The translations under genes and the position numbers were made by a program. This document shows positions 15,119-39,180 of a DNA stretch of 64,000 nt, piece by piece. The notes beneath the pieces are model-generated. The model was not told where the DNA came from. It worked only from the letters and a program-made list of their open reading frames with translations, and ran no database searches. The stretch is from Streptomyces sp. NA02950 (GTDB taxonomy: Bacteria; Actinomycetota; Actinomycetes; Streptomycetales; Streptomycetaceae): positions 8,462,001 to 8,526,000 of the forward strand of contig NZ_CP054916.1 in NCBI RefSeq assembly GCF_013364155.1, in the 5' to 3' direction. The first letter of the stretch is position 1. The number at the start of each line of letters is the position of its first letter.

Positions 15119-15164
15119 CGCGTAAGCTCGTCGCACCATCGGAACAGTGGGAAGGAAACGGGGA

Positions 15165-16190
15165 GTGGCTGTCTTGACCCCCTCGATCGGCATTGCGGGG
15201 ACCGGGAATTATCTGCCGCACGAGCCGATCAGCCTGGAGTCGTATGTCGAAGCGGGTCTGGAACTGAGCCCGATGGACAACGGACCGCTGCTGCGGGCCC
15301 CGCAGTGGCGGCACCACATCGCACCGGGTGAGCGGGCCAGTGAGATGATCGAACGGGCCGCGGCCCCGATGTTCGAGCGGCTCGGAGTCGATCCCGCCCG
15401 CGATGTGGACCTACTAGTCACCAATGTGCTGCTGCCCGACGATCTGTTCACCGGATGCGGCGCCGACACCGCCCACCGGATGGGGATGTCGCCCGAGTGG
15501 ATCATCGATCTGCACAACGGCGGCTGTGCGTCCTTCCAGTACATGCTGAAGATCGTCGCGCCCATCATGGCCGTTGAAGGCGCCAGGACCGCGCTGCTGG
15601 CCAATGTGCAGAACACCGCGGGCCAGATATTCGCCCAGGACGGCAACCGCTTCAAATCGCACAGTGTCGCCGCCGGTGACGGCTGCGGAGTCGCCCTGGT
15701 CACCCTCGACCCCGGCCCCGACACGCCCCGGCTGCTGGGCACGCGCACCCGTAACACCCCCGCCACCGCACGCGACCTCGGCATGGCGACCTCCGACGGC
15801 CGGCACCACTGGCAGACCGGCGACAGCGTCCTCGATGTGCAGTTCGACGCCGCGAAGACCAAGGAGACCCTGGAGCTGGGCAACCGGCTGGTGCCCGAGC
15901 TCGTCCGCGAACTGAGCGAGCAGTGCGCGTTCGACGTCGACGAGATCGATGTCCTCGTCACCAACCAGCCGAACCGTATCTTCCTGCGCAACTGGCGCAA
16001 TGGACTGGGGATCGACGCCGAGCGCCATATCGACACCTACGACCGCTTCGGCAATCTCTACGGCGCGGGAGTGCCCGTCACCCTGCACGACGCGGTCACC
16101 GCCGGCCGTATCAAGCCCGGCAATCTTGTGGTCACGGCGGGCTTCGCGCATGCCGGGGATTTCGCCGCGGCGGCCGCCTTCCGATGGTGA
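15165..16190 (+). CDS. KASIII-like (FabH-fold) enzyme with altered catalytic triad
   Basis: A 341-residue thiolase-fold protein starting at the GTG at 15165 behind GAAGGAAA. The nucleophile cysteine is about residue 121 (NGGCASFQYM). The usual HQAN motif, which carries the catalytic His, is VTNQPNRIFLRNW here, putting Asn (about 267) in the His position. The second catalytic Asn is kept near 297 (FGNLYGAGVPVTL). A Cys-Asn-Asn centre should not decarboxylate malonyl-ACP normally. FabH relatives with changed triads act as acyltransferases or in unusual condensations (CerJ is a known KASIII-type acyltransferase with a different change). It lies between the exporter and the PKS gene and may supply the starter to the N-terminal ACP of the PKS. 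Confidence 0.85.
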   Translation: MAVLTPSIGIAGTGNYLPHEPISLESYVEAGLELSPMDNGPLLRAPQWRHHIAPGERASEMIERAAAPMFERLGVDPARDVDLLVTNVLLPDDLFTGCGADTAHRMGMSPEWIIDLHNGGCASFQYMLKIVAPIMAVEGARTALLANVQNTAGQIFAQDGNRFKSHSVAAGDGCGVALVTLDPGPDTPRLLGTRTRNTPATARDLGMATSDGRHHWQTGDSVLDVQFDAAKTKETLELGNRLVPELVRELSEQCAFDVDEIDVLVTNQPNRIFLRNWRNGLGIDAERHIDTYDRFGNLYGAGVPVTLHDAVTAGRIKPGNLVVTAGFAHAGDFAAAAAFRW

Positions 16191-16407
16191 TCCCCCGCCG
16201 AACCGGATAACAACCGCACACTCAATGACCAGAAGATGTCGCGGAGTTGACTGTGAAGAAAACGGGGTTACCTCCTCCCGGATGTGAATGGCATGGCGAG
16301 CACATCGGACGAGGGAAAGCATCACGACGTCCGCCTCCCACCTCATCACCGGGGCCACCGGCCCCCTTTTGCGGCCCGACCGAAGGTTCGTAGAAAGGGT
16401 GGACACC

Positions 16408-22176
<5,769 letters not shown>

Positions 22177-22190
22177 TTGGACCCACACCT

Positions 22191-25100
22191 ATGCCTGTCG
22201 ACAACGAGGATGTCTTAGAAGCACTGCGCGCGGCCATGAAGGACAACGTCCGGCTGCGGCAGGAGAACGAACGCTCCCGGGAGCCGATCGCCGTCGTCGG
22301 CCTGGCCTGCCGGTACCCCGGCGATGTGATGTCCCGTACGGATCTGTGGGAGCTGGTGGCGGCGGGCCGGGAGGCCATATCCGGCTTCCCCGGCGACCGC
22401 GGCTGGGACCTGGACGCCATCTACCACCCCGACCCCAGCCATCCGGGCACCAGCTACGTCCGCACCGGTGGCTTCCTGTCCAGCGCCACCGAGTTCGACC
22501 CCCGGTTCTTCGGCATCAGCCGCCGTGACGCCCTGGCCATGGACCCGCAGCAGCGGCTGCTGCTCGAAGGCGTGTGGGAGGTGTTCGAGGACGCCGGTAT
22601 CGCCCCCGACACGATGCGGGGCAGCAGCACCGGAGTCTTCGCCGGGGCCATGTTCCAGGACTACGCCTGGCTGGCGCGCCAGCGCGACGACCAGGTCGGC
22701 GGCCGCTGGGGACTGGGCAACCTGGGCAGCTTCGTCTCCGGCCGGATCGCCTACACCTTCGGCTTCGAGGGCCCCGCCATGACCGTGGACACCGCGTGTT
22801 CGTCCTCGCTGGTGGCCACCCATCTGGCGATGCAGTCGCTGCGTCGCGGCGAATGCTCGATGGCCCTGGCCGGCGGGGTGACCGTACTGGCCACCCCGGG
22901 TGTCTTCGTGGAGTTCTCCCGGCAGCGGGCGCTGTCGCCGGACGGCCGGTGCCGGTCCTTCTCGGCCAAGGCCGACGGCACCGGATGGGCCGAGGGCATG
23001 GGGGTGCTGCTGCTGGAGCGGCTCTCGGACGCGCGTCGCAACGGCCATCCGGTCCACGCGGTGTTACGCGGCTCCGCGGTCAACCAGGACGGCGCCAGCA
23101 ACGGGATGACGGCCCCCAACGGCCCCTCCCAGGAGCGGGTGATCCGCGGCGCGCTGGCGGACGCCGGGCTGTCAGCGGCCGAGGTGGACGCGGTCGAGGC
23201 ACACGGCACCGCCACCGTGCTCGGCGATCCCATCGAGGCACAGGCACTGCTCGCCACCTACGGCCAGGACCGCCCCGCGGACCGGCCGCTGTGGCTGGGC
23301 TCGCTGAAGTCGAACATCGGCCACACCCAGGCCGCGGCGGGCGTCGGCGGCCTCATCAAGATGATCACGGCGATGCGTGCGGAGACCCTTCCGGCCACCC
23401 TGCACGCGGACGAGCCCACCACCAAGGTGGACTGGTCCTCCGGCGCCGTGGCCCTGCTGACCTCGGCGCGCCCGTGGCCGCGCGCCGACCGCCCCCGGCG
23501 GGCCGGGGTGTCCAGCTTCGGCGCCAGCGGTACCAACGCCCACCTCATCGTCGAGGAACCGCCCGCCGACCCGGCACCCGCCCGGGCCCGGCCCGCCGCC
23601 ACCGCCCCCGGTGAGCCGGTGGTGTGGCCGGTGTCGGGAAAGATGCCGTCCGGACTCACCGCCCAGGCACGCCGGTTGCGGGAGCGGCTGGCTGCCCACC
23701 CCGAACTCGACCCCGTGGACATCGGCCACTCCCTGACCACCGGCCGAGCCCAGCTCTCGCACCGTGCGGTCGTGGTGGGCCGCGACCGCGACGAACTCCT
23801 GGCCGGGCTGGACACGGTGATCAGCGGGGACGCGGCCCCCGGGGTACTGCTCCACTCCGGGGCACGGGCCGGAAGCGCGGCATTCGTGGTCCCCGCCCCC
23901 GACAAGCAGTCCATGGAGCTCGCCCGCCAACTCCTCACCGACGCACCGGCGTTCACCGCGCGGATGGAGGAGTGCGCCCAGGCGCTCGCTCCGCACACCG
24001 ACTGGAACCTGCTCGACGTGGTGAACGGCGCCCCGGACGCCCCCGCGCCCGAGGAGCCCGGTGTCCTCGGCCCCGCCCTCTTCGCCGTCCAGGTGTCCCT
24101 GGCGGCGCTCTGGCGCGCCTACGGTGTGGAGCCCGACGCGGTCGTCGGTGAGCCGGGCGCCGACATCACCATCGAGGTGATCGCCGGTCGGCGCACCCTC
24201 GAGGACGCCGCACCCGCCGTGGCCACCGCGGCCACCACCGGCGCGGCCGAGTCCGGCGCCCTGCGGGAGACCCTCCGTACCCAGGTCGAACAGGGCTTCC
24301 GCGCCTTCATCGAGATCAGCCCGCAGCCGACGCTCAGCGCTACCCTGACCGGCGCCGTGACCGCCGCGGGCGGCGATCCCGGCGAATTCATGATCACCGA
24401 ACCGGCGCCGGGCGCGCCCGACGGCCTGGCCACCTTTCTGCACACGCTGGCCCAGGCGTTCGTCGGGGGCGTACGGGTCGACTGGTCTCCCTTGTTCGCC
24501 GGGCGCGACGCCCGCACCGTCGAGCTGCCGACCTATCCCTTCCAGCGCCAGCGGTACTGGCTGGCCGGGACCAAGGACCGGCCGGCGGCGCCTCCGCCGG
24601 AGCGCCCGGCCGCGGCCGAGGACAGCCGCGGCACCCTCACCGTGCTGCTGCGCCGCGCCCATGTCGAGAACGCCATCCCCGAGGCCGTCCCGATGGTGAT
24701 GGCCGCCTCGCGGTTCCGGCCGTCGTTCTCCTCGACGGCGGAGCTGAGCGGTGTGCCGGGCTCGATACTCGCGGCCGAGGGCGCGGCCTCGCCCGCGGTC
24801 ATCTGCGTACCCTCGTTCCTCGCCGGTTCCGGTCCGCACCAATTCGCCCGGCTGGCCTCGGAGTTCACCCCGCGGCTGCGGACATCGGCGTTGGTCCTGC
24901 CGGGGTTCGGCAAGTCGCATCTGCTGCCCGCCTCCTGGACGGTGGCGATCGAGGCGATGTCGGACGCCACCCTGGCGGCCGCCGCGGGCGAGCCCTTCTT
25001 CCTGGTGGGCCACTCCGTCGGTGGGCTGATCGCCCGGGCCATCGCGGAACGCCTCCAGCACAGCGGCCATCCCGCCCGGGGCGTTGTCATGATCGACACC

Positions 25101-25448
25101 TATGACATCGACGTCCGCAGCGAACGCGAGGCCCTGTTCGTCTGGGCGATGAGCGAGATCCTCGACCGGGATCCAACCGGTCTGGTGGTCAACGACAACA
25201 ACCTGATGGCGATGGGGTCCTATCTGCGGCTGTACGACGAGTGGTCCCCGGGCAGCTTCGACGCACCGACCCTCGCGGTGCGGGCGGTGGCCTCCGACAC
25301 CCCGCTGAGCCTGCCCGTCGACCCGGTCTGGAAGGCGGCGGACACCAGCGAATCCGTCCTGGCCGACCACTTCTCGATCCTGGAGGACAAGGCGGCGACC
25401 ACCGCCCGGGTGGTCGGGGACTGGTTCGCCCGGGTGTCCGCACCCTGA
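22191..25448 (+). CDS. Type I PKS protein: KS, degenerate AT, TE, no ACP
   Basis: About 1,085 residues. The N-terminus ([20 protein letters not shown]) is a docking coiled coil. The KS is intact: Cys near 203 ([12 protein letters not shown]), EAHGTATV and [10 protein letters not shown]. The AT region (about 480-790) is dead. PGQG is replaced by PAPD, the GHSxGE elbow reads GEPGAD near 653-658, and the substrate-binding block with its catalytic His is deleted. After the post-AT linker (YPFQRQRYW) comes a TE with Ser near 942 (GHSVGG) and His near 1060 (DHFSI). There is no ACP between AT and TE. The KS must work with a carrier in trans, or only pass the chain to the TE. The start could also be the GTG at 22173, which overlaps the previous stop. 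TTA codons occur at 22215 and 23064. Confidence 0.93.
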
Positions 25449-25554: not shown

Positions 25555-26388
25555 ATGGTCAAATCGGTGATCGACAATGTCTCCGACACCGCGCGCTGGG
25601 TCGCGGAGTACCGGGCACGGGAATCCGCCCGCCCGGACGCCCTGTTCCGTGATCCGCTGGCGACCGGGCTGGCGGGGGAGCGCGGCAGGGTCATCGCCGA
25701 GGCGGCCAAGCGGTCGTTCGGCAACGGCTGGTTCTTCATCGCGCGCACCAAGCTGATCGACGACCTCATCGAGCGGTCCCTCGCCGAAGGGTGCGACCGG
25801 GTCGTCAACCTCGCCGCCGGTCTGGACACCAGACCGTACCGGCTTCAGCTGCCGCCGTCGCTGGAGTGGATCGAGGTGGACCTCCCGGGGATCATCGAGG
25901 AGAAGAACCGCCTCCTCGCCGATGAGTCCCCGCGCTGCAAGCTCTCCCGGGTGCCGGTCGATCTCACCGACGTGGCGGCGCGCCGCGGCTGTCTGATCGA
26001 CGCCACCAAGGGGGCCGCGAAGACACTCGTCATCACCGAGGGACTTCTGCTGTATCTGGCGGAGTCCGAGGTCCATGAGCTCACCACGGAGCTGAAAAGG
26101 CCGGAAATCGCCTGGTGGGTCGCGGACATCATCGGACCCGCCATTCTCAAGATGTCCAGCAGAGCGAGCAGAACGAATAACGCGCCGGTCATCTTCGGGC
26201 CGGAGAACGGGATTGCGTTCTTCGAACGGGCGGGCTGGACCGTCGATCGCTTCGCCTCACAGTTGCCCGCGGCCGCCCAATGGAATCGGCTGTCACCCGT
26301 GATGCGAATCGTGGCCCGGCTGCCCAAGGGGAATCCACGCCGCCCCGGCCGTTCTCTGTGGTCCGCCGTAGTCCGGCTGACTCCCTGA
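25555..26388 (+). CDS. SAM-dependent methyltransferase, leucine carboxyl methyltransferase (LCMT/PPM-like) family
   Basis: A 277-residue protein with an ATG behind AGGGGAGAG. It shows the family N-terminus (SDTARWVAEYRARES...FRDPLA), the SAM site VVNLAAGLDTRPYRLQLP, the acidic EVDLPGIIEEKNR strand end, and the LVITEGLLLYLAESEV motif. In secondary metabolism, members of this family often methylate carboxylates or other oxygens on polyketide-derived chains. It is downstream of the TE-bearing PKS protein, so methyl-esterification of the released acid is a reasonable guess. The C-terminus is basic. No TTA codon was noticed. Confidence 0.85.
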   Translation: MVKSVIDNVSDTARWVAEYRARESARPDALFRDPLATGLAGERGRVIAEAAKRSFGNGWFFIARTKLIDDLIERSLAEGCDRVVNLAAGLDTRPYRLQLPPSLEWIEVDLPGIIEEKNRLLADESPRCKLSRVPVDLTDVAARRGCLIDATKGAAKTLVITEGLLLYLAESEVHELTTELKRPEIAWWVADIIGPAILKMSSRASRTNNAPVIFGPENGIAFFERAGWTVDRFASQLPAAAQWNRLSPVMRIVARLPKGNPRRPGRSLWSAVVRLTP

Positions 26389-26544: not shown

Positions 26545-28971
26545 ATGCCCGAGATGGCTCATATCAGTCCCTTTCACCGGCTGGTGGTTGTCGTCACCGA
26601 TAGCGAGGTGATGGGCCCGGCGGCGGGCCGCGCGCTTTCCGATCTGGCCGGAGCGCGTGACGTCGACATAGCCGTTTCACCGGCCGGTAATCCGGCGAAT
26701 GACGAATACCGCGAAGTGGTCAAGCGCGGTTTACGATTCCTTGACCTCGTCGCGCCCGAGGACCAGTTCACCCTTCTGACGGTGGATTCACTCGATGCCG
26801 TCGGGGACGCGGTCATCAAGGCGGCACAGGACCGGAAGACCGTCCTCAGCCTGCTGGTCGTCGACCACGCGGACTACCGCTACCGCATGACCTCGCCCGA
26901 TGACCTCAATGAGCGGCTGGGCGCCCTCTCCCAGGAACTGGGCGAGACGGTCGAGTTCGAGCCGAGCCCCTACACGGTGCACGTCTACACCGACACCGAT
27001 GTCGAGAGCTTCTACTCGGTGGAGCACTTCACCCCGCGCTGGAAGCCGGTCGAGGAATGGGTCGTTCCCGCCGACATCGCCTGCGTCTTCGTCGACTCCG
27101 TCCAGTTGCAGAGCAACAGCCGGCTGCGGCCCGCGATGAAGCCGAGCACCATCGCCGACGCCATCGCCGACTTCCTGACCGCCCGGGCCGGATCCGAGTG
27201 GGGGCTGCACTACTACACCGGATCAGGGGTAGCCACCTTCATCGACGATATCGAGCAGCGCGCCGTCGCGGGCGGGAACCCGATCGTCCGCGGCCCCAGC
27301 GAGCACAGCCTCGCCTGCTCCGCGCTGGCCCGCTACACCCTCGACGGCGCCCCGTTCGCCATCGTCGCCACCAGCGGTATGCACGAGGAGTTCCGCGGTA
27401 CGCTCGCCAACCACGTCGCCGTCCGCACCAAGGGCTTCATCGTCTGTTGCGACTCCCGCGTCGACCAGTGGCACCCGTTCCAGGGCACCATCCACCGCAC
27501 CGAGGACAGCCGTCCGTCGTTGCTGGCCCGCGGCTTCCCGGTGGTCCACATCCCGCGGTCCGACGACATCCCCCGCGGCCTCGCCGAGGCGTTCGAGGCG
27601 TACTCGGCCGACCGCGGCCCGGTCATGGTGATCGCACCCCGCGATGTCCTCCAGACCACCCTCGACCTCGACGAGCTGCCCGCGGCGGGGGCCGCGGCAG
27701 CACCCACGGCGGAAGCCGTCCGCACCCCCGAGGTCGAGCGGCTGTCCCAGCTGCTCAACTCCGAGCGCCGCAGGCTGCTCTGCCAGGTCGGGCCGCTCGG
27801 CGACACCGCGAAGGGGCTGCTGTACGAGCTGGCGCACAAGGCGGGTATCGGCCTGGCCGACTCGGTGGCCCAGCCCGGTACGGTGACCCGCCACCACAAC
27901 GGCCGCACCGTCGACGAGTACATCGGCACGCTGAGCATGTACGGCTACTCACCGCGCGTCTACGAGTACCTGTACCGCGACGGGCGGCTCCGCCCCGGTG
28001 ACGAGCAGTCGGTGATGTTCCTCGGCACCCAGATCCCGCAGATCGACACCCCGTTCTCGGAATCCCAGCAGCGGCAGCTGGCCCCGATCCAGATCATCGA
28101 GCGGGAGATCGACCGGGCGCCGTTCACCGGACTGGGCATCGTCGCCGACATCGAGGGGGTGCTGCGCACCCTGCTGGACCGGCTCGACGTGGACCCCGAG
28201 GTGCTGGCCTACCGGCGGGACGCCATGGCCTCCACCACCGACTCCGACGGCGATGTGATCAGCCTGCTGCCGGTGCTGCCCATGACCACCAACTACTTCT
28301 TCCGGCGGCTGCGCGGCGTCCTGGACGGCATCATCAGGCAGCACGACTACCGCTACGTCGGTGTCTACGACATCGGGCGCGCCGGGCTCTCCGCGGTCAA
28401 CAGCCTGCCGCGTACCAGCCCCTGTGTCTCCGGCTGGTACGGCCGGGGGCTGATGGGCGACGGTCTGATGGCCCTGCCCGGCATCCTCACCCGGCGCGAG
28501 GAGAACGTCATCTCCTTCACGGGCGACGGCGCCGCCGCCATGACCCCGGACATCGTGCCCACCCTCGTCCAGCAGATCGCGGTCGACCGTGAGCCGTTCC
28601 GCCGCAACCTCAGCATCTTCCGGTTCGTCAACGGCAGCCACTCCGTGATCCGCACCTACCGGGAGAGCGTCAAGCCCTCGGGCATCAGCGGCCAGACCGG
28701 GGTGCTGACCTTCACTCCCGAGGACTACGAGCGGCAGTACGGCGGGCTGACGGTCCGGCACCGCCGGATCGTCGGATTCGACGATGTGCCCTTCGCCGAG
28801 CAGCTCCGGGAGCCCGGGACCATCAACCTGTACTCGGTGATGGTCGGGCACAACAACGAGGGTGACGGGCTGAGCCGGTTCTCCTCGCTGGGCTGGCAGC
28901 GCGATGAGCTGTCCCCGAAGGCGCTGGCCATGGCCGGAGTGCCGATCTCGACACAAGCGCCGACGCCGTGA
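26545..28971 (+). CDS. Large thiamine diphosphate-dependent enzyme (acetolactate synthase/MenD fold)
   Basis: An 808-residue protein with an extra N-terminal domain (about 1-210) unlike common ThDP enzymes. It is followed by a PYR domain with the likely activating Glu near 253 (GPSEHSLACSALARY), a central TH3-like domain (about 390-545), and a PP domain with the ThDP/Mg motif SFTGDGAAAM near 658-667 and the downstream Asn in FRFVNGS. ThDP carboligases of similar size with an N-terminal extension include the PigD-type Stetter enzymes, which add an activated pyruvate unit to enoyl substrates; this comparison is inference. The next gene is a free ACP, suggesting a carrier-bound substrate. TTA at codon 63 (26731-26733). 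The start could also be the ATG at 26554. Confidence 0.82.
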   Translation: MPEMAHISPFHRLVVVVTDSEVMGPAAGRALSDLAGARDVDIAVSPAGNPANDEYREVVKRGLRFLDLVAPEDQFTLLTVDSLDAVGDAVIKAAQDRKTVLSLLVVDHADYRYRMTSPDDLNERLGALSQELGETVEFEPSPYTVHVYTDTDVESFYSVEHFTPRWKPVEEWVVPADIACVFVDSVQLQSNSRLRPAMKPSTIADAIADFLTARAGSEWGLHYYTGSGVATFIDDIEQRAVAGGNPIVRGPSEHSLACSALARYTLDGAPFAIVATSGMHEEFRGTLANHVAVRTKGFIVCCDSRVDQWHPFQGTIHRTEDSRPSLLARGFPVVHIPRSDDIPRGLAEAFEAYSADRGPVMVIAPRDVLQTTLDLDELPAAGAAAAPTAEAVRTPEVERLSQLLNSERRRLLCQVGPLGDTAKGLLYELAHKAGIGLADSVAQPGTVTRHHNGRTVDEYIGTLSMYGYSPRVYEYLYRDGRLRPGDEQSVMFLGTQIPQIDTPFSESQQRQLAPIQIIEREIDRAPFTGLGIVADIEGVLRTLLDRLDVDPEVLAYRRDAMASTTDSDGDVISLLPVLPMTTNYFFRRLRGVLDGIIRQHDYRYVGVYDIGRAGLSAVNSLPRTSPCVSGWYGRGLMGDGLMALPGILTRREENVISFTGDGAAAMTPDIVPTLVQQIAVDREPFRRNLSIFRFVNGSHSVIRTYRESVKPSGISGQTGVLTFTPEDYERQYGGLTVRHRRIVGFDDVPFAEQLREPGTINLYSVMVGHNNEGDGLSRFSSLGWQRDELSPKALAMAGVPISTQAPTP

Positions 28972-29009
28972 CCGGGACCGACGTCGGGACATCGATCGAA
29001 GGAGCGGAT

Positions 29010-29291
29010 ATGGAGCGCGCCCAGCTCGAGGAGCGGGTGATCACGCTACTGGCCGAGGCCGTGGTGATGCCGCGGGAGGACGTGGAGGACCCGCGGACCA
29101 ATCTCCGGGAAGACCTCGGCATGGACTCGATGGACTATGTCGACCTCATCACCGTGCTGGAGCGCGAACTCGGCCAGCATGTGGAACGGGAGCAGCTCTC
29201 CTGGGTCCGCACCGTCGGTGATGTCGTCGACCTGGTGTGCGAACTCGCCGCCAAGCGGGACGACTTACCGACGCCGCGGACGAGTGCCTGA
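29010..29291 (+). CDS. Free-standing acyl carrier protein (first)
   Basis: A 93-residue ACP with an ATG behind AAGGAG. The phosphopantetheine Ser is near residue 40 in EDLGMDSMDYVDLI, and helices II and III (LERELGQHVEREQL, TVGDVVDLV) are normal. It lies 38 bases after the ThDP enzyme gene and probably carries that enzyme's substrate or product. It is also one of two candidates for the carrier missing from the KS-AT(dead)-TE protein. Residue 86, in the disordered tail, is encoded by TTA (29265-29267). Confidence 0.92.
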   Translation: MERAQLEERVITLLAEAVVMPREDVEDPRTNLREDLGMDSMDYVDLITVLERELGQHVEREQLSWVRTVGDVVDLVCELAAKRDDLPTPRTSA

Positions 29292-30088: not shown

Positions 30089-31087
30089 TCAGGGCAGCGC
30101 GACGACGGTGGCCGCGTACGACAGCCCGGCGCCGTAACCGACCAGCAGCGCCAGATCCCCGGGGCTGGTCGCGTCGGAGGACATCAGCGCCTCCATCGCC
30201 AGCGGGATCGAGGCGCCCGAGGTGTTCCCGGTGGTCACGATGTCCCGGGCGATGACGGTGGACTCGGGCAGCTCCAGCCGCTTGGCCATCGCGTCGATGA
30301 TCCGCGTATTGGCCTGGTGCGGAATGAAGGCGTCGAGATCGGCGGGGGAGACCCCGGCGGCGGCCAGGGCCTGCTCCGCCACCTTGGACACCTCGTAGAC
30401 CGCCCAGCGGAACACCTTCTGTCCCTGCTGCTGAAGGGCGGGCCACCGGTGGTCGCGGTCCGTGCGCAGCGCGTCCCACGGCACGGTCTGCGAGATCGCC
30501 TCCGTCTGGGAGCCGTCGGCGCCCCAGACCACCGGGCCGATCGCGGGCGTCTGCGACGGGCCGACCACCACGGCTCCGGCGCCGTCGCCGAAGATGACCG
30601 CCGTCGAGCGGTCCTCCAGATCGAGCAGATCGGTCATCCGCTCGGCCCCGATCACCAGCACATGGCCGCCCCGGGACCGCACCGCGTCCGCGGCCAGCGA
30701 GAGACCGTGCACAAACCCGGCGCAGCCGGCCGACACATCGAAGGCGGCGGCGTGCGTCCCCAGCCGGTGTGCCACCTCCGCCGCCACCGCGGGTGTCTGC
30801 CGCAGATGGGTGAAGGTGGCCACGATGACAGAGTCCAGGGCATCGGCCGGGACGCCCGCGGCGGCCAGCGCCTTGCCCGCGGCGGGCACCGCCATGTCGG
30901 CGATGGTCTCGTCGGGATCCGCCCAGCCCCGGGCGGCGATCCCGGTGCGGGTGCGGATCCACTCGTCGGAGGAGTCCACCTGGTGGCACAGCTCCTCGTT
31001 GGTCACCGCACGGCGGGGCCGGTACGCGCCCACGCCGAGAATACGGGCGTGCGGTGCGCCCACGGACGGAGTGATCCGCGCCTTCAT
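30089..31087 (-). CDS. Beta-ketoacyl-ACP synthase III (FabH family)
   Basis: A 332-residue KASIII with the full Cys-His-Asn centre: SAGCAGFVHG, FIPHQANTRIIDA and TTGNTSGASIPLA. The N-terminus, ILGVGAYRPRRAVTNEEL with SSDEWIRTRTGI, is canonical. It starts at the ATG complementary to 31085-31087, with GGAGG nine bases before. FabH enzymes condense an acyl-CoA with malonyl-ACP. Here it lies in an operon with an acyl-AMP ligase and a desaturase, so it may start or extend the chain on the right-arm ACP. It differs sharply from the other KASIII-like gene of the cluster (15165-16190), which lacks the catalytic His. Confidence 0.92.
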   Translation of the reverse strand: MKARITPSVGAPHARILGVGAYRPRRAVTNEELCHQVDSSDEWIRTRTGIAARGWADPDETIADMAVPAAGKALAAAGVPADALDSVIVATFTHLRQTPAVAAEVAHRLGTHAAAFDVSAGCAGFVHGLSLAADAVRSRGGHVLVIGAERMTDLLDLEDRSTAVIFGDGAGAVVVGPSQTPAIGPVVWGADGSQTEAISQTVPWDALRTDRDHRWPALQQQGQKVFRWAVYEVSKVAEQALAAAGVSPADLDAFIPHQANTRIIDAMAKRLELPESTVIARDIVTTGNTSGASIPLAMEALMSSDATSPGDLALLVGYGAGLSYAATVVALP

Positions 31088-31187: not shown

Positions 31188-32816
31188 TCAGGCGAACGCC
31201 ACACGGGCGAGCGGCTCGAGCCGGTCCCCGTCCAGCATCGCCCGGCAGCGGAACCGCTGGATCTTTCCGCTGGGGGTCTTCGGCAGGGTGCCGCGCGGCA
31301 GGAACACACATTCCGACAGCGCGACCCCCGACTTCTCCAGCGCCACGGCCGCCGCCTGGTCCGCGATCGGCCGGAAGTCACGCGGCTTGCCCTGCGGCTC
31401 CAGCATCAGCACCAGCCGGGGCAGATCCCCGGAGCCGCCGATGTCCACCACCGCCGCACACCCCTTGCGCACCTGCGGGAAGGAGTCCACGGCCGACTCG
31501 ATCTCCGCGGCGTAGATCTTCCGTCCGCCGACGGAGAGCATGTCGTCCGAGCGCCCCATCACATACAGCTCGCCGTCGTGGACGAAGCCCAGGTCGCCGG
31601 TGCGCAGCCGGCCGTCCACAAACCGGTCGGCGGTGCGCTCCGGATCGGCGTAGTACCCCTGGGCCAGGCTCGGCGAGCCGACCTCGATCTCGGCCACCTG
31701 GCCCGAGGAGCCGGCCACCACCTCGACCCCGGGGAGCGCCAGTCCGTTGGACACCAGCCGGGTGGCCCGGGGGTGGTCGGCGGACACCTCCACCGCCTTC
31801 AGGTCCAGCAGTGCCGCTCCGTCGAAGACGAGCGAGGACGGGGCGTTGGCCCACGGCTTGCCGGTCACCGCGAGGGTGGCCTCGGCCATGCCGTACGCGG
31901 GCTGGAAGGCGGTTTCGGACAGGCCGAAACGGCTGAACTTCTCGGTGGCCATGGCCAGGGTGTCCCAGTCCACGCGCTCGGCCCCGATCACCGCGGCGCG
32001 CAGCCGCAGCTCCTTGGGGAGTTCCGCGCGGCCCTGGGCGCGGGCGGCGAGATATACCGCGGTGCTGGTGCCCGCGGTCATGGTGGCCTCGTACTCGGAC
32101 ATGTCGCGGAACCAGCTGCGGGGCGCCATCGCGAAGCGCTCGGGCGTGGACAGCACGAAGTGGAAGTCGTACGACCAGGCGTAGAGCAGACAGCCGAACA
32201 TCCCCATGTCGTGCGAGAGCGGCAGCCAGGACACCACCGTGTCATTGGCGGGACGGCCACCGGTCAGACTGAGGATGATCTTCATCTGCTCCTCGATGGC
32301 GCGGGTGGTGAGCGCACATCCCTTGGGGGTGCTGGTGCTGCCCGAGGAGTACTGGATGAAGGCGATGTCGTCCGGCCCCGGCGGGCTCGGCTCGATGGTC
32401 CCGGAACCGCGCAGCGAGGCCCACCCCGCCACCGGCACCTGGGCGGTCAGCTCCTCGGGCACCAGGGAGGTCAGCCAGTCGTCCACCAGCAGCAGCGTCG
32501 GATCCAGCCGCGCGGCGACGGCGGCGAACTGACGGCGGTACTCCTCCTGGCTCTGGCCGCGGGTGGGCAGCGGCAGCGAGGCCACCGCGCCGCCCGCGAG
32601 CCAGATGGCGAGCAGCCCTCGGACCGTGTCCGGGGTGTTGGTGAGGATGGTGGCCACCCGGGTGCCGGGCCGCACTCCGTGGGCGCGCAGCCGCGCGGCC
32701 ATCCCATGGGCGTCGGCGACCACCTCGCGCCACGGTGTGTGCTCGAAGTCCTCGCCGGACCAGGCGTGCAGGGTGCCGCCCGCCGAGCCGCTGGTCAGCG
32801 CGTTCCACAGTTGCAT
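31188..32816 (-). CDS. Fatty acyl-AMP ligase (FAAL), ANL superfamily
   Basis: A 542-residue adenylating enzyme. Motifs are the P-loop YSSGSTSTPKG, LPLSHDMGMFGCL, AYGMAEATLAV, the ATP-binding RTGDLGFVHDG, the hinge region GRKIYAAEIE, and the C-terminal lysine region LPKTPSGKIQRFRCR. FAALs make acyl-AMP and pass the acyl group to the phosphopantetheine of an ACP rather than to CoA. The natural acceptor is the ACP encoded across the divergent promoter (34725-34970). It is cotranscribed between the desaturase and KASIII genes. The substrate chain cannot be read from sequence. Confidence 0.9.
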   Translation of the reverse strand: MQLWNALTSGSAGGTLHAWSGEDFEHTPWREVVADAHGMAARLRAHGVRPGTRVATILTNTPDTVRGLLAIWLAGGAVASLPLPTRGQSQEEYRRQFAAVAARLDPTLLLVDDWLTSLVPEELTAQVPVAGWASLRGSGTIEPSPPGPDDIAFIQYSSGSTSTPKGCALTTRAIEEQMKIILSLTGGRPANDTVVSWLPLSHDMGMFGCLLYAWSYDFHFVLSTPERFAMAPRSWFRDMSEYEATMTAGTSTAVYLAARAQGRAELPKELRLRAAVIGAERVDWDTLAMATEKFSRFGLSETAFQPAYGMAEATLAVTGKPWANAPSSLVFDGAALLDLKAVEVSADHPRATRLVSNGLALPGVEVVAGSSGQVAEIEVGSPSLAQGYYADPERTADRFVDGRLRTGDLGFVHDGELYVMGRSDDMLSVGGRKIYAAEIESAVDSFPQVRKGCAAVVDIGGSGDLPRLVLMLEPQGKPRDFRPIADQAAAVALEKSGVALSECVFLPRGTLPKTPSGKIQRFRCRAMLDGDRLEPLARVAFA

Positions 32817-32933: not shown

Positions 32934-33941
32934 CTACTCGACGTCCACCACGGACGCCGTCGCGTTCCGCTTGCGGTCGGCCATGGGTGCGATCCGCTGC
33001 TGGCCCTCCAGCAGCTCCTGGCGGCCCAGCCGGCCCGCCTCCACCCGGCTGATGTTGGCCTCCCGCATGGTCAGCCGCTCGGTGTCGATGCGGACGACCT
33101 TCCAGGCCAGGCGGGTCTTCTCCAGGCTCCAGATGAGGATGGCGCTCAGGTCGAGCTCGTACCACTTCATGCCGTGCCGCGCCGAGCGGGGGAAGGCGTG
33201 GTGGTTGTTGTGCCATGCCTCGCCGAACGACGGGATGGCGAGCCAGGCCACGTTGCGGGACTCGTCGGTGGTGGTGAACCGCCGCCGGCCGAAGTAGTGG
33301 CCGACCGAGTTCACCGCGTAGGTCATGTGGTTGATCAGGAAGATGCGGACCAGGCCGCCCCACAGGATGCCGGTGAGCAGCGCACGTACCGAACCGCCGG
33401 TGATGGCGTACGCGATCAGGCCGGGCAGCAGCACCCCGGCCAGCACCACCGGCACCAGGTTCTCGCTGAGCCAGCGCAGGGGCTTCTCGCGCACCAGGTC
33501 CGGGCAGTAACGGATGGGATCGGAGGTCAGCTCGGTCCGGAACAGCCAGCCGAGGTGGGCGTGCCACAGTCCGGCCATCATGCCCTTGAAGCCGGGCTCG
33601 AAGTCGAGATGCGGGCTGTGCGGGTCACCGGCCTTGTCGGCCACCCTGTGGTGACGCCGGTGGTGGGCGGCCCAGATGATCGGCGGGCCCTGTCCGGCCA
33701 TGACTCCCGCGGTGGCCAGGGCGACCCGGATCGGCTTGTAGGTCTCGAAGGAACGGTGGGTCAGCATCCGGTGGTAGCCGGTGGAGATACCGAAGCCGGA
33801 GATCGCGTACATGATGACCAGGACGACGATGTCCGACCAGCGGAAGATCTCCTGCCACAGGAGAACCATGGCGCCGAAGACCGCGACGAGCGGAATCACC
33901 GACGCCGCGAGGATGAACCAGCGATGTTCCCTACCGTCCAT
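32934..33941 (-). CDS. Membrane fatty acyl desaturase (diiron, stearoyl-CoA desaturase type)
   Basis: A 335-residue integral membrane enzyme with about four transmembrane helices and the three histidine boxes that bind the diiron centre: HRMLTH, HRRHH and HNNHH, plus the typical WGGLVRIFLINHMTYAVNS segment. It starts at the ATG complementary to 33939-33941, behind GAGGGAGAG. It is the first gene of a leftward operon with FAAL and KASIII. With the FAAL and the divergent ACP it makes the set (ligase, membrane desaturase, ACP) used by JamABC/TtuABC cassettes to make terminal alkynes or alkenes on an ACP. Ordinary delta-9 desaturases look similar, so the regiochemistry is open. Confidence 0.9.
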   Translation of the reverse strand: MDGREHRWFILAASVIPLVAVFGAMVLLWQEIFRWSDIVVLVIMYAISGFGISTGYHRMLTHRSFETYKPIRVALATAGVMAGQGPPIIWAAHHRRHHRVADKAGDPHSPHLDFEPGFKGMMAGLWHAHLGWLFRTELTSDPIRYCPDLVREKPLRWLSENLVPVVLAGVLLPGLIAYAITGGSVRALLTGILWGGLVRIFLINHMTYAVNSVGHYFGRRRFTTTDESRNVAWLAIPSFGEAWHNNHHAFPRSARHGMKWYELDLSAILIWSLEKTRLAWKVVRIDTERLTMREANISRVEAGRLGRQELLEGQQRIAPMADRKRNATASVVDVE

Positions 33942-34724
33942 GGTGTCTCTCTCCCTCTCTGGATCCCTTGCTTCACCTGGCGCGGTTGATCACGCGTCCG
34001 CTGATCACGCGTCTGCCGCGGCGGTCAACACCGTGACGGCGGCAGGGAGATGACCCGTGGCGGGAGTGGACCGGGGCCGGAGCGCGAAGACACGATCGGC
34101 AACTTCATGACAGGGGCGAGCGGAATTCTTTCGTCCCATGCTTCGCCGGTGGATAAGCCGGACGTCGGCGACGCCGACGCATCGCCGTGCTCCCCCAGTT
34201 GATCAGGCATGTCACCCTCTGGCCGTCACATCGTCTTGCCCTCCGCCCTCCTGCGTCGAGCGGGAGGGCGGGTGGCGATGGTCCACCCACCATTTTTTGA
34301 TACTGCGGCAAAGGAGTTCAACCCGCTACCCGGTGGCAGGACGTTGCCAATTTTCCGGAAGCACCTAGTGGCAGGTCCTTGCCATTTTCCGCGAAACACA
34401 TGCCACATGCACTTCAACCGCTCTGACGTGAGCGATCCTGGGGCGGCGGTACGGTTCGTACTCTTTCACGGTCCGAAACCTACGGCACGCCGGGGAGTTA
34501 GTGGAGACACTGGCAATGACCTCGCCGGTCGTGCAAGATGGGCAACCGAGTTCGATGGTTCGACGGGGGACGGCCCGGGTTCGTTTCACCCGTTCATCGC
34601 GAGTGCCCGTGCGTCGCGGGCGCGGGGAGTGGTCCCGCACCGCCGTACCCGCGTTCCCGCACCATGAGCATCGAGTTTCGGACCGGTTTACGGTCGCGTA
34701 ACCATTCCAGGAGAGGTGAAGCCC
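33942..34724. other. Large divergent intergenic region of the right arm
   Basis: This 783-base spacer separates the leftward desaturase operon from the rightward ACP operon. It is less GC-rich than its surroundings, especially at 34280-34420 (short A/T runs such as CATTTTTTGATAC). It contains the paired inverted repeats annotated separately. A 66-codon frame at 34501-34701 has a GTG start but no family resemblance, and I do not call it. Promoters for both operons must lie here. Confidence 0.6.
34334..34384. promoter_or_regulatory. Two 16-bp inverted repeats TGGCA-N6-TGCCA, 35 bp apart
   Basis: TGGCAGGACGTTGCCA (34334-34349) and TGGCAGGTCCTTGCCA (34369-34384) are dyads with perfect 5-base arms and a 6-base centre. 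Each is followed by a similar A/T stretch (ATTTTCC), so the whole unit of about 28 bases is a direct repeat, 35 bases from start to start. It is a strong candidate operator pair for a regulator of the divergent right-arm operons. The regulator is not evident in the window. Confidence 0.7.
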
Positions 34725-34970
34725 GTGATTACCGTCGAGGACGTCTGCGGTCTCATAGCCAAGAAGCTCGGCAGCAAGGCGGATTCGTTCACACTCAACG
34801 CCGATACCGCCTTCGACGAGGTGGGCCTGTCGAGTCTCCAGATCGCTGACATCGTCTACACCATCGAGGACGACGCGGGAATCGAATTCGACCCGAGCCA
34901 GGCCGCGAGCGTGAAGACCGTGGGTGATCTCGTGAAGCTGGCCGAGGCCACCAAGGCGAGCGCCGAGTGA
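34725..34970 (+). CDS. Free-standing acyl carrier protein (second), atypical SSL motif
   Basis: An 81-residue carrier protein. The GTG at 34725 has AGGAGAGG about 8 bases upstream; the GTG at 34716 is less likely. The four-helix pattern is clear: VEDVCGLIAKKLG, then EVGLSSLQIADIVYTIED and SVKTVGDLVKLAE. The pantetheine Ser should be residue 37, where the usual D-S-L reads S-S-L, so the conserved Asp is missing. It is the probable acceptor for the FAAL. Its stop overlaps the GTG of the methyltransferase gene (GTGA), indicating coupled translation and suggesting that the next enzyme acts on the carrier-bound chain. Confidence 0.9.
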   Translation: MITVEDVCGLIAKKLGSKADSFTLNADTAFDEVGLSSLQIADIVYTIEDDAGIEFDPSQAASVKTVGDLVKLAEATKASAE

Positions 34971-35830
34971 CGGTCGACTACCAAGGTGCCACCGCGGAAT
35001 CGATCAGGCACCACTACGACGTCTCCAACGATTTCTATGAGTTGTGGCTGGACGAGGAGCTGACCTACACCTGCGCCCTGTGGGGCGAGGGGGACACTCT
35101 GGAGGACGCCCAGCGGCGGAAGCTGGACTATCTGATCGAGGGCTCCCGTGCGCCGGGCGCACGACGGGTGCTCGACGTCGGCTGCGGATGGGGAAGTCTG
35201 CTCAAGCGGCTGGTCGGCACGCACGGCGTCGAGCAGGCCGTGGGGCTGACGCTGAGTAGCAGTCAGGCGCAGTATCTGAACGGGCTGGAACTGCCCCGCA
35301 CCGAGATCCGGGTGGAGAACTGGCTCGACCACGAACCCGTGGAGAGCTATGACGCCATCATCTCGATCGGCGCCTTCGAGCACTTCGCGCGCACCGGGCT
35401 GTCCCGCGCCGAGCGGGTCGCGGCGTACCGGGAATTCTTCCAGAGGTGCCGGTCCTGGCTGCCCCGGGGCGGCCGGCTCGCGCTCCAGACCAATATCAAG
35501 GGCAACAACACGGTCATGGACAAGCAGACCGTCCGTGACCTGATGTTCATCATGGAGACGGTCTTTCCGGAATCCGAGATTCCTGCACTCTCCGAGGTTC
35601 TGGAGGGCAGTGAGAAACAGTTTGACGTCGTCACGTTGCGCAACGACCCGGACCACTACAGCCGCACCTGTCAGGAGTGGCTGAACCGGCTGCGGGCGAA
35701 CCGCGAGAAGGCCCTGGAATGCGTCGGCGAGCTCAATGTCGCCAACTACGAGAGGTACCTGGGCGCGACCGTCGAGCACTTCGCCAAGCGGCACCTGGGG
35801 CTGTCGAGAATGGTTCTCGAAGCGGTGTGA
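34967..35830 (+). CDS. SAM-dependent methyltransferase of the cyclopropane-fatty-acid synthase family
   Basis: A 287-residue enzyme starting at a GTG within the ACP stop. The family hallmarks are HHYDVSNDFYELWLDEELTY, the SAM site VLDVGCGWGSLLKRL, GLTLSSSQAQYL and SIGAFEHFARTG, with an EHF-type bicarbonate/active-site segment. Members methylate alkenes to cyclopropanes or methyl branches, but some in natural-product clusters are N- or C-methyltransferases. Working downstream of a desaturase on an ACP-bound chain would fit alkene methylation. The pairing with a downstream FAD oxidoreductase recalls branched-lipid pathways, although that oxidoreductase belongs to a different family here. Confidence 0.87.
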   Translation: MTVDYQGATAESIRHHYDVSNDFYELWLDEELTYTCALWGEGDTLEDAQRRKLDYLIEGSRAPGARRVLDVGCGWGSLLKRLVGTHGVEQAVGLTLSSSQAQYLNGLELPRTEIRVENWLDHEPVESYDAIISIGAFEHFARTGLSRAERVAAYREFFQRCRSWLPRGGRLALQTNIKGNNTVMDKQTVRDLMFIMETVFPESEIPALSEVLEGSEKQFDVVTLRNDPDHYSRTCQEWLNRLRANREKALECVGELNVANYERYLGATVEHFAKRHLGLSRMVLEAV

Positions 35831-35867: not shown

Positions 35868-37190
35868 TTGAGCAACCTGAAACATGTCGTGTACTGGCAC
35901 GACACCGAGCCCGTCGTGCCCGGACCCCCGCTGCGGGAGTCGGTCGACTGCGATGTGTGCATTGTCGGCGGTGGATTCACCGGACTGTGGACGGCCTACT
36001 TCCTCAAGGAGGCCGAACCCGCGCTGGACATCCACATCGTCGAAGCGAAGCACTCCGGTTACGGAGCCTCGGGACGGGCGGACGGATTTGTCACCCCGAC
36101 CATCGGCAAGGATCTCCAGGCGCTCGTCAAGAAGTTCGGTGCGCAGCGGGCCCTGGAAGCCACCCAGGCCGTCGGGCGGTCCATCCTGGAAATCGGCCGG
36201 TTCACCCGCAGGAACAAGGTCGACGCGGGATACGAGGCCAATGACTACCTGATGGTCGCCACCGACCGTGGTCAGGTCAGGCGGTTGCGGGAGGACCGGG
36301 AGCTGGCCGAGCGCATCGGCGGGGTCGCGCCCGAGATCCTCAGCGGTGAAGAGGCCCGGGACATCATCGACTCGCCCGCCGTCCAGGCCGGTATGCGGGT
36401 CGGCGGCGCCCTGGTCAACCCGTTCCGGCTGGCGCGCGGTATCGCCCGGGTGGTCCGGGACAAGGGCGTGGTCATCCATGACGACACCCCCTGTCTGCGG
36501 GTCGAGCCCGGTGTGCGGACCACCGTCGTCACCGCGGGCGGCCGGGTCACCGCCGACAAGGTGGTGCTCGCCACCAACGTCCACATGGACGCGTTCCGGC
36601 CGTTCCGCCACCGGGTCGTCCCGATCTGGACCTACGCGATGGTGAGCGAACCGCTCACGGACCGGCAGATCGAGCGGGTGCGCTGGGCCGGACGCGAGGG
36701 CATGGTGGAGGCCAAGTCCCTGCTGACCTGCGCCCGTTTCACCCACGACAACCGCATCATGTTCGCGGGGGGTCCCGCGCCGTACTACTACGGGCGTGAC
36801 AAGCGGCAGCGCAACATGAACCGCGACGAGGTCTACCGCACGATCCGCCACGAGTTCCAGCGGTTCTTCCCGCAGTGGGACGACGTGTCCTTCAGCTACG
36901 CCTACGGGGGGACCGCCGACGTCGTCCGCGACTACGCACCGCACTTCGGCCGGCTCAGCCACGGTGTGTTCTACGGCTACGGCTACTGCGGCAACGGCAT
37001 CGCGGCCACCCACACCGGTGGCAAGGTCCTTCGCGATCTGGTGCTCGGCAAGGACACCGACCACTCGCGGCTGCTGCTGGTCGACAACGACCAGCGCAAG
37101 CCCCCGCCCCCGTTCCCGCCCGAGCCCTTCCTCTTCGCCGGAGCCCGGATGGCGCCCCGGCTGATGGACTGGAAGGACGCCCGGCCATGA
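35868..37190 (+). CDS. FAD-dependent oxidoreductase, DadA/glycine oxidase family
   Basis: A 440-residue flavoprotein starting at the TTG at 35868. The N-terminal dinucleotide fold is CDVCIVGGGFTGLWTAYFL, followed by IVEAKHSGYGASGRADGF. The C-terminal FAD motif is GVFYGYGYCGNGIAATHTGG. The family oxidises C-N bonds of amino acids and amines (D-amino acids, sarcosine, gamma-glutamylputrescine). In this operon it may oxidise an amine made on, or added to, the lipid chain; that is inference. Its stop overlaps the next start (ATGA). It is probably soluble. The TTG start follows the methyltransferase gene by 37 bases with a poor ribosome site. Confidence 0.85.
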   Translation: MSNLKHVVYWHDTEPVVPGPPLRESVDCDVCIVGGGFTGLWTAYFLKEAEPALDIHIVEAKHSGYGASGRADGFVTPTIGKDLQALVKKFGAQRALEATQAVGRSILEIGRFTRRNKVDAGYEANDYLMVATDRGQVRRLREDRELAERIGGVAPEILSGEEARDIIDSPAVQAGMRVGGALVNPFRLARGIARVVRDKGVVIHDDTPCLRVEPGVRTTVVTAGGRVTADKVVLATNVHMDAFRPFRHRVVPIWTYAMVSEPLTDRQIERVRWAGREGMVEAKSLLTCARFTHDNRIMFAGGPAPYYYGRDKRQRNMNRDEVYRTIRHEFQRFFPQWDDVSFSYAYGGTADVVRDYAPHFGRLSHGVFYGYGYCGNGIAATHTGGKVLRDLVLGKDTDHSRLLLVDNDQRKPPPPFPPEPFLFAGARMAPRLMDWKDARP

Positions 37191-38218
37191 GCGGCACACC
37201 GCGGACCGTATTGCTCACCGGTGCCTCCGGTGTGGTCGGCCGATCCCTGCTGCGCGAGAACACCGGCCCCACGGACGGCCGGGAGGCCGCGGGACTGCGC
37301 ATCATCGCCGCCTCCCACAGCGCCCCCGCGCCGGAGGCCGAGCGGTCGGTGGCCTGCGACGTCACGGCCGAGCGCTTCGGACTGGACGAGGAGAGCTACG
37401 CGGCGCTGGCCGACGAGGTGGACGTGGTCATCCACTCCGCCGGGCTGACCGAATGGGGTCTGCCCGCCGAGCGCTACCAGCCGATCAATGTCGAGGGCAC
37501 CCGGCGGGTCGCCGAGTTCGCCGAACGGGCCGGTGCGGTCGTCCACTTCATGAGCACGGCCTTCGTCGCCGCGCTCGCGGACACCGCCCCGATGCCGCTC
37601 GGCGACGGAAATGTGTGCCGCAACTACATCGAGTCCAAGCACCGGGCCGAGGAGCTGCTGCGCGCGTCCGGAGTGCCGCACACCGTGTTCCGGCCCACCA
37701 ACCTGGTCGGCGACTCGGTGACCGGCTGGACATCCCAGGGCCAGATCGTCCAGTTGATGTCCGACTGGATCGGCCGCGGCCGGGCGCCCTTCGTCCCTGC
37801 CCACGACGGGATCCGGATGGACTTCGTCCCGCAGGACCTGCTGTCCAAGGCGGTGCTGCGGGCCATCCAACTCGGCGACGACCAGGGCGAGTTCTGGGTG
37901 ACCTACGGGGCCGAGGCGATGGATGTGGCCGAGTGTCTCCAGGTGGTCGTCAAACACGCCGCCGCCCGGGGGCGGGACCTCACCGCACCACCGGTCGTGG
38001 ACCCGGCCTCGCTGGACCCGGCCGAGCTGGCACGGATGGCGCCGATGACCCGCTCGTACCTCTCCGTGCTGCGCGATGTCAGCGAGGTCACCGCGTGCAG
38101 CGGCGGGGTCCTGCCCACCTCCATGCCCCACCTCCGCGAGCGCTACGGCGTGCCGCCTGTGGCCGACTCCACGGCGTACCTCCGCAGCCTGGAGTACGCC
38201 ACGGCGCATCTGAGCTGA
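37187..38218 (+). CDS. Extended SDR / thioester-reductase-like NAD(P)-dependent protein
   Basis: A 343-residue protein that overlaps the previous gene by ATGA. The Rossmann motif TGASGVVGRSLLREN is at residues 10-24. VIHSAGLTEWG and NVEGTRRVAEFA are typical of extended SDRs, and the catalytic YxxxK is in NYIESKHRAEELL. RPTNLVGDS and WTSQGQIVQL are typical of the male-sterility / thioester reductase branch (TE-Red, Lys2-type). A role in reductive release of an ACP-bound chain to an aldehyde or alcohol is therefore possible. It lacks the larger C-terminal extension of stand-alone carboxylic acid reductases. Confidence 0.78.
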   Translation: MSGTPRTVLLTGASGVVGRSLLRENTGPTDGREAAGLRIIAASHSAPAPEAERSVACDVTAERFGLDEESYAALADEVDVVIHSAGLTEWGLPAERYQPINVEGTRRVAEFAERAGAVVHFMSTAFVAALADTAPMPLGDGNVCRNYIESKHRAEELLRASGVPHTVFRPTNLVGDSVTGWTSQGQIVQLMSDWIGRGRAPFVPAHDGIRMDFVPQDLLSKAVLRAIQLGDDQGEFWVTYGAEAMDVAECLQVVVKHAAARGRDLTAPPVVDPASLDPAELARMAPMTRSYLSVLRDVSEVTACSGGVLPTSMPHLRERYGVPPVADSTAYLRSLEYATAHLS

Positions 38219-38247
38219 TACGCGCCCCACAACGGAAGGACAGAACG

Positions 38248-39180
38248 GTGAACGACGGCTGGAACCCACCGGACCTCAGCAAGGCGGTGGCGGTGGTCAC
38301 CGGCGCCAGCCGGGGCGTGGGCCGTGGCATCGCCGCCGCGCTCGGCGCGGCGGGGGCGACCGTGTACGTCACGGGCCGCAGCGCGCGCGACGGGAGCCGG
38401 ACCGAGAACCTGCCGGGCACGGTCGACGAGACGGCCGAGGAGGTCACCCGGCGTGGCGGCACGGGTGTCGCCGTACGCTGCGACCACCGCGATCCGGCGG
38501 ACAACGAGGCGCTGTTCGAGCGGATCAACACCGACCACGGGCGGCTCGATCTGCTGGTCAACAACGCCTGGGGCGGCTACGAACGCTCCTCCGAGGTCCG
38601 CTTCGACGCCCCGTACTGGGATCAGCCCATGTGGCGCTACGACCTCTTCGAGGGGTCGCTACGGGCTCAGTACGATGTGACCCGCCGCCTCACCCGGCTG
38701 ATGCTCCCGGAGAAGCGCGGCCTGATCGTGGGCATCAGCTTCTCCGACGGGGACATCTATCTGGGCCAGGTCGGCTACGACGTGTTCAAGTCGGCCTCGG
38801 ACCGCATGTGCCGGGGGTTCGCCGCCGATCTGCGCAAGACCGATATCGCGGCCGTCTCCCTGCACCCCGGCTTCGTCCGCACCGAGCGGGTGGAGGCGGC
38901 CTGGGACGCTCTCGGCAGCGGCCCCGCCGCGGTGGTGCACACACCGGAGTACGTCGGCCGCGCGGTCGTCTCGCTGCTGGCGGACCCGGAGGCCAAGGAG
39001 TACACCGGGCAGGTGCTGGCCACCGGTGACCTGGCCGAGCGGTACGGCTTCGACGATGTGGACGGTAAGCGGCCCCCGGCCTTCCGGCTGGAGGGGCGGA
39101 TGACGCTGGCCACCCGGATGGACCGGCTGAACCGCGTGGTCAAGCAGCGGTCGGAACAGCAGCGGTCGGAACAGCAGTAG
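38248..39180 (+). CDS. Classical SDR family oxidoreductase
   Basis: A 310-residue protein from the GTG at 38248 behind GGAAGGA. It has AVVTGASRGVGRGIAAALG as the cofactor site, LLVNNAWGG in place of NNAG, a catalytic YxxxK in VGYDVFKSASDR, and the post-catalytic HPGFVRTE. The large family of related proteins (DHRS1-like) reduces ketones using NADP(H). It is the last gene of the right arm. Its final residues, QRSEQQRSEQQ, are encoded by a 15-bp tandem repeat whose third copy carries the stop codon, so the C-terminus is a recent slippage product. Confidence 0.85.
   Translation: MNDGWNPPDLSKAVAVVTGASRGVGRGIAAALGAAGATVYVTGRSARDGSRTENLPGTVDETAEEVTRRGGTGVAVRCDHRDPADNEALFERINTDHGRLDLLVNNAWGGYERSSEVRFDAPYWDQPMWRYDLFEGSLRAQYDVTRRLTRLMLPEKRGLIVGISFSDGDIYLGQVGYDVFKSASDRMCRGFAADLRKTDIAAVSLHPGFVRTERVEAAWDALGSGPAAVVHTPEYVGRAVVSLLADPEAKEYTGQVLATGDLAERYGFDDVDGKRPPAFRLEGRMTLATRMDRLNRVVKQRSEQQRSEQQ

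Follow-up and report, generated by a model that had tools for sequence, protein, structure and literature searches.

A terminal polyketide synthase without acyl carrier protein, conserved in Streptomyces and Nocardia, that may work with a borrowed carrier

The window, a stretch of 64,000 nucleotides from Streptomyces sp. NA02950 (contig NZ_CP054916.1, positions 8,462,001 to 8,526,000), encodes PKS2, a polyketide synthase (PKS) protein in which an intact ketosynthase (KS) and an intact thioesterase (TE) flank a dead acyltransferase (AT) and which has no acyl carrier protein (ACP). Modules of modular PKSs normally carry their own carrier. PKS2 is a real, conserved protein that is under selection. 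Because its relatives keep the same stripped-down PKS beside a separate carrier protein, our data suggest that PKS2 works with a borrowed carrier. This carrier is most likely ACP1, a discrete ACP of the same gene cluster, and its identity is held with higher confidence than the reaction it would serve.

22191..25448, + strand: PKS2; docking domain, KS, AT remnant and TE; 1085 aa, no ACP

The PKS2 start was placed at the ATG at 22191, which gives 1085 aa and is in line with the starts of the homologues (the first in-frame GTG is at 22173). Pfam recognised a KS, a partial AT and a TE, and no ACP. The KS (hereafter KS2) keeps its active site, with Cys203, His338, Lys373 and His378 and a canonical SFGASGTN loop, and the TE has Ser942 in GHSVGG and His1060 in DHF; a preliminary description of the locus had called both domains normal from the cysteine, the two histidines and the two TE motifs, all of which are present. 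It had also described an AT that lacks PGQG and GHSxGE (reading GEPGAD) and has lost an internal block. This holds in the alignment, in which GQGSQ is replaced by APDKQ, GHSIGE by GEPGAD and HAFHS by gaps, and in which a single block is missing that corresponds to 124 residues present in P0017, a control from the same genome. The best stretch against the Acyl_transf_1 profile covers only profile positions 14-115 of 319. The reported absence of an ACP between AT and TE is borne out by Pfam, by empty alignment columns and by the PP-binding profile, which has no match in PKS2 even at E<=1; the missed ACP domain that might have undone the earlier reading was thus not found in the protein. In the structure model the AT and TE folds are present. 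The best PDB sequence matches of PKS2 are cis-AT DEBS chains (862.8 bits), and the best chain named as an AT-less PKS reaches only 383.3 bits; in a tree built without trans-AT KSs, KS2 groups with the cis-AT KS of the neighbouring PKS1 (KS1), and no discrete AT was named among the cluster genes scanned, so that a trans-AT assignment is not indicated. Measured against a canonical cis-AT terminal module, PKS2 has, by sequence, the KS and TE catalytic residues and lacks a catalytic AT and an ACP.

A homologue search with 7985 candidates scored gave at least 551 matches, 120 of them listed. The alignment comprises 17 proteins, namely 15 members of the family (from Streptomyces and Nocardia, PKS2 included) and two ACP-containing controls, P0017 and P0015. 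P0040, which has neither ACP nor AT in precomputed Pfam annotation, lies outside the alignment. The AT catalytic motifs are lost or deleted in 15/15 members and kept in both controls, and likewise the AT-TE gap is devoid of an ACP in all 15 members, the controls keeping theirs. By contrast with the AT, the KS Cys, His, Lys and His are retained in every member covering these sites (11/11), with Ser replacing the loop Gly in P0012, and the TE Ser and His are kept in 15/15. As all aligned members share this state and the controls keep AT and ACP, it is not a local assembly error, the other objection raised in the preliminary description; several members sit on contigs of 7.6-10.3 Mb. Three of 392 Streptomyces genomes, among them the source genome, contain the AT-TE part, and 9 of 148 Nocardia genomes match, six over the full query and three over the TE only.

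PP-binding matches occur, by annotation and alignment, in four of the 17 aligned proteins: the two controls, P0005 and P0008. In the latter two the ACP is N-terminal and resembles that of PKS1. With an ACP-KS-AT remnant-TE order, both appear as PKS1 and PKS2 merged inside the KS, a layout that may stem from genuine recombination or from collapse during assembly; since the strain of P0005 also has a partial PKS (P0085), collapse of a KS repeat is likely there. An open frame of 3099 aa in genome G051 was considered as a PKS1-PKS2 fusion and rejected, since the two lie in different frames.

The comparison that points to ACP1 involves four further genes of the window:

16288..22176, + strand: PKS1; ACP, KS, AT, dehydratase (DH), ketoreductase (KR) and ACP, from Pfam and motifs; proposed chain supplier to PKS2
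26545..28971, + strand: PigD-like thiamine diphosphate (ThDP) enzyme, NCBIfam NF053552
28968..29291, + strand: ACP1, discrete type II ACP; proposed trans carrier of PKS2
34716..34970, + strand: ACP2, second discrete ACP, adjoining a CMAS-family methyltransferase gene

The PKS1 stop and the PKS2 start are 14 bp apart, and the ACP1 gene overlaps the PigD-like gene by 4 bp. The PigD-like enzyme scores 663.9 bits against NF053552 over nearly its full length, below the curated cut-off of 950, and is by sequence a PigD homologue, no equivalog. Two free ACPs had been noted nearby; both exist, with boundaries (28968-29291 and 34716-34970) slightly longer at the 5' end than first given. Nine loci were compared: that of the window, L005 (S. 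coffeae), L006, G051, G297, G392 (N. brasiliensis, L007/L024), G414, G497 and G440. Every one of the nine has PKS2, the PigD-like gene and ACP1. PKS1 was seen at eight of them, since at L006 the contig breaks off within PKS2. Eight loci also have ACP2, the exception being the G414 cluster; the G414 genome, which is possibly incomplete, gave no close ACP2 either (best match 29%, E 2.3e-4). As ACP1 is present at every locus and ACP2 is gone from G414, ACP1 belongs to the core, and ACP2 is a separable part that the PKS2 family does not require. The 40 kb examined in G414 contain no desaturase, CMAS, DAO, reductase or SDR gene either, and the ligase of its cluster differs (29.5%). In G414 (L049:2582-13678) the PKS core adjoins genes for a polyprenyl synthase, HMG-CoA reductase and synthase and a squalene-hopene cyclase. 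The desaturase has no tblastn match in the stretch examined of S. coffeae L005; the LCM methyltransferase occurs at seven of the nine loci and was not found in the stretches examined of G414 and G497; and in G497 ACP1 lies 2.6 kb from PigD. L008 (N. brasiliensis) and L009 (N. vulneris), excluded from the count of nine, contain PKS1, PKS2, LCM, PigD and ACP1 too. The earlier statement that PKS2 must use a separate carrier is therefore supported as to the carrier, ACP1 being present at 9/9 loci; its "must" is too strong, as the TE might take the chain directly from a PKS1 ACP and as CalA3, an ACP-less module with a dead AT and an intact KS, releases its chain onto a small amine (PMC10006239).

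The pattern of selection bears on what KS2 does. In five comparisons with PKS2, omega was 0.11-0.22 for the KS, 0.30-0.69 for the AT remnant and 0.23-0.45 for the TE, the KS having the lowest value in 5/5. KS1 and KS2 are 76-91% identical over eight pairs, seven of them each within one genome and the N. brasiliensis pair from two strains (78% within one strain). In the KS tree the PKS1 and PKS2 sequences do not form two groups: 4 label changes are needed, at least 3 of which are forced by well-supported branches, and the Streptomyces KSs stand apart from the Nocardia KSs. The two KSs of G297 are joined at 100/100 and are 91% identical to each other, vs 72% to KS2 of the window. In the TE tree, the PKS2 TEs stay together against the two controls (97/94). 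Since the KS sequences group by lineage and not by protein, we infer that they have been homogenised, and the simplest explanation would be repeated gene conversion between KS1 and KS2, keeping KS2 interchangeable with a normal condensing KS. Such interchangeability argues against a KS specialised for another reaction, although condensation is unproven; on these grounds KS2 probably still condenses.

The rest of the cluster comprises the following genes:

15147..16190, + strand: KASIII-like protein; Cys kept, HQAN changed to NQPN; acyl transfer to PKS1 proposed
25555..26388, + strand: LCM-family methyltransferase
30089..31006, - strand: FabH, HQAN kept
31188..32816, - strand: FAAL-like AMP-binding ligase
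32934..33941, - strand: fatty acid desaturase family protein
34967..35830, + strand: CMAS-family methyltransferase
35868..37190, + strand: DAO-family FAD oxidoreductase
37187..38218, + strand: stand-alone thioester-reductase-like protein (NAD_binding_4)
38248..39180, + strand: SDR

In PKS1 of the window the AT motifs are GHSQG and YASHS (HAFHS in N. brasiliensis), which we take, by the usual rules, to indicate a methylmalonyl-type AT, and KR and DH motifs are found. The PKS1 chain is thus predicted to be an alpha-methyl-enoyl thioester, which one condensation would convert to an enone. The replacement of HQAN by NQPN, with loss of the His, recurs in 6/6 KASIII-like sequences compared, that of the window included, and this protein is possibly an acyl transferase rather than a condensing enzyme. 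Between 31188 and 34970, the FAAL-like ligase, the desaturase and ACP2 stand beside CMAS, DAO, the stand-alone thioester reductase and the SDR; the first three are reminiscent of a JamABC-type alkyne/alkene cassette. An open reading frame at 37453-39180 was discarded as a single gene in favour of the two genes at 37187-38218 and 38248-39180. An IS110-family transposase (40429-41694) lies at the cluster edge. Outside the PKSs, the genome encodes a FabD-like protein (232.7 bits, below the family cut-off of 260.9). No publication recognisable as describing the cluster was met in a search that left most subscription journals outside.

We also compared five remote PigD loci (PigD 44-47% identity), with Pfam run on one of them, L043. 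At three of the five a discrete ACP is encoded nearby that matches ACP1 with a higher score than it matches any other carrier of the cluster, and in these three its gene overlaps a discrete KS gene; no discrete KS partner was found among the cluster genes scanned in the window. L043 encodes PigD, a class III aminotransferase, an ACP and a discrete KS, the aminotransferase and the KS being confirmed by Pfam. The same locus encodes a PKS protein (L043:1679-4108) with a KS, a weak ACP match and no AT by Pfam, beside a discrete TE, the aminotransferase, the ACP and the KS.

How might such a protein work? The reading we prefer, at somewhat less than an even chance, is that PKS2 is a terminal type I KS-TE unit that extends the PKS1 chain onto the type II protein ACP1. 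The docking domain of PKS2 would bring in the PKS1 chain (the alpha-methyl-enoyl chain in the window), and KS2 would take it onto Cys203 for condensation with an ACP1-bound extender. This extender is probably malonyl, and the FabD-like protein of the genome could load it onto ACP1. The condensation would yield an enone thioester on ACP1, to which the PigD-like ThDP enzyme might add a two-carbon acyl unit in a Stetter reaction, before release by the tethered TE. In unsaturated ketones and thioesters PigD preferentially attacks the beta position (PMC8341465). The KS2-ACP1 contact, the malonyl extender, the loading by the FabD-like protein, the position of the PigD step and the release chemistry are all inferred. 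Condensation with an extender on ACP1 is more economical than the earlier suggestion that the KS joins two carrier-bound chains. A broader proposal is more tentative: the system may be a natural type I/type II hybrid, in which a modular KS-TE protein relies for good on a type II ACP as its carrier. A Stetter-type ThDP enzyme would use the same ACP and add an acyl anion to the chain there, after the last condensation and before release.

Three other explanations were weighed. KS2 might not extend the chain at all and might only pass on to ACP1 the enoyl chain carried by the PKS1 ACP; the PigD-like enzyme would then act on the ACP1-bound enoyl thioester itself, before release by the TE. This we consider doubtful. 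The co-occurrence of PKS2, PigD and ACP1 at nine loci fits it equally well; KS2, however, retains the features that serve decarboxylative condensation (His, Lys and the FG loop), and its sequence clusters by lineage with that of KS1, a condensing KS. Non-elongating KSs often lack the HGTGT His. In its favour, the substrate proposed for PigD in nature is an enoyl thioester (PMC8341465), and polyether chains are reported to move to a discrete ACP, after which a type II TE acts (PMC4147253). A still less likely explanation is that KS2 serves, together with the AT remnant, as a scaffold for docking, the TE taking the chain from the last PKS1 ACP and ACP1 serving PigD elsewhere, for instance in making a starter. 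Yet a scaffold would not need an intact active site, whereas that of KS2 is invariant in 11/11 members covering it, and among the domains omega is lowest in KS2, which stayed intact while the adjoining AT decayed. Finally, like the ACP-less CalA3, KS2 could transfer the chain to a small-molecule nucleophile and so release it. PKS2 shares with CalA3 the lack of an ACP, the dead AT and the KS residues Cys-His-His and Lys; by the positions printed for CalA3, the spacing from Cys to His (+135), Lys (+170) and His (+175) is the same (PMC10006239). A DAO-family oxidase, able to act on amines, is in the cluster. Nevertheless this explanation is very improbable. In CalA3 the positioning loop is C436-L437-T438-L439, and L437A abolishes amidation (PMC10006239); by constant-offset mapping from the printed positions, not from the CalA3 sequence, this loop corresponds to the canonical S442-F443-G444-A445 of PKS2, and CalA3-like amidation is disfavoured because of it. 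Moreover, in the cluster genes scanned Pfam identified neither an aminotransferase nor an amine-making enzyme, and the TE is fused in PKS2, CalA3 having none.

Several observations weigh against extension of the PKS1 chain onto ACP1. The structure model is poor over KS2 and uninformative for it (pLDDT <50 over 25-202). ACP1 and PigD could instead make the PKS1 starter, as co-occurrence cannot order the steps. At two of the five remote PigD loci no ACP match was found, and in the G414 cluster another ACP adjoins a FabH. The KS2 loop of G414 reads SFSI, not SFGA. In the KS tree, label shuffles equalled the observed clustering in 46-56 of 500 cases, the KSs of the window and of S. coffeae still cluster by protein, and the homogenisation could be partly passive, arising from repeat homology. 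The PKS1 DH motif deviates from HxxxGxxxxP in G297 and N. brasiliensis, so that the enone may not form in every lineage.

If PKS2 does act with ACP1, a conserved terminal unit without carrier but with intact KS and TE would be a natural way of bringing a chain to tailoring enzymes by means of a mobile carrier. Such a unit could be of use in PKS engineering, KS-ACP recognition in trans becoming directly testable, and its pairing with a PigD-like enzyme suggests a polyketide that may contain a 1,4-dicarbonyl.

The literature searched showed no ACP-less terminal KS-AT-TE unit in bacteria, and PMC11260071 and PMC5719088 yielded nothing relevant. A dinoflagellate transcript contig has KS-AT-TE, beside a burA-like KS-AT-TE-KR-PP, with the AT motif GHSLG kept (PMC7159223), and in a mollusc clade only KS, AT and TE are predictable (PMC10764717). 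CalA3 of calcimycin biosynthesis (PDB 7wvz, 8i4y and 8i4z), an ACP-less chain-release module in which AT, DH and KR are inactive and the KS forms an amide (PMC10006239), resembles PKS2 in being terminal, in its docking domain, in the absence of an ACP and in an AT without catalytic residues. It differs in its dead DH and KR, its lack of a TE, its retained AT small subdomain and its amide-forming KS; PKS2, for its part, has no DH or KR, a fused TE, an AT with 124 residues missing and a canonical FG loop. In polyether biosynthesis the chain is transferred to a discrete ACP before release (PMC4147253), but the TE is separate there and fused in PKS2. Module 10 of the pateamine PKS, a KS-KR without ACP, is proposed to act on an ACP-bound substrate (PMC7157528); unlike PKS2 it has a KR, lacks a TE and starts a chain.

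Canonical KS-AT-ACP-TE proteins such as P0017 and P0015 have the remaining domains of PKS2 in the same order, with homologous KS and TE, and differ from the family in the AT core and the ACP, both missing from 15/15 aligned members. Pks13 joins two long carrier-bound chains and is the nearest precedent for the chain joining proposed in the preliminary description; its AT works, and PKS2 by contrast has no working AT and no ACP. The NCBIfam Pks13 model gives PKS2 603.7 bits, far below its cut-off of 2100. The mycobacterial FadD32-Pks13 pair offers a likeness in that a FAAL feeds a small PKS of the ACP-KS-AT-TE type with a fused TE (PMC9113097). The MAP pathway of prodigiosin (PigD, PigE) resembles the present system in that a PigD-like enzyme stands beside a discrete ACP, the remote locus L043 also having an aminotransferase and a KS. 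In the MBC branch of prodigiosin biosynthesis, a KS works with a separate ACP (PigJ/PigH). The window differs from the MAP pathway in that no aminotransferase is named among its genes scanned, that its PigD score is 664 against a cut-off of 950, and that a modular PKS stands in for the discrete KS.
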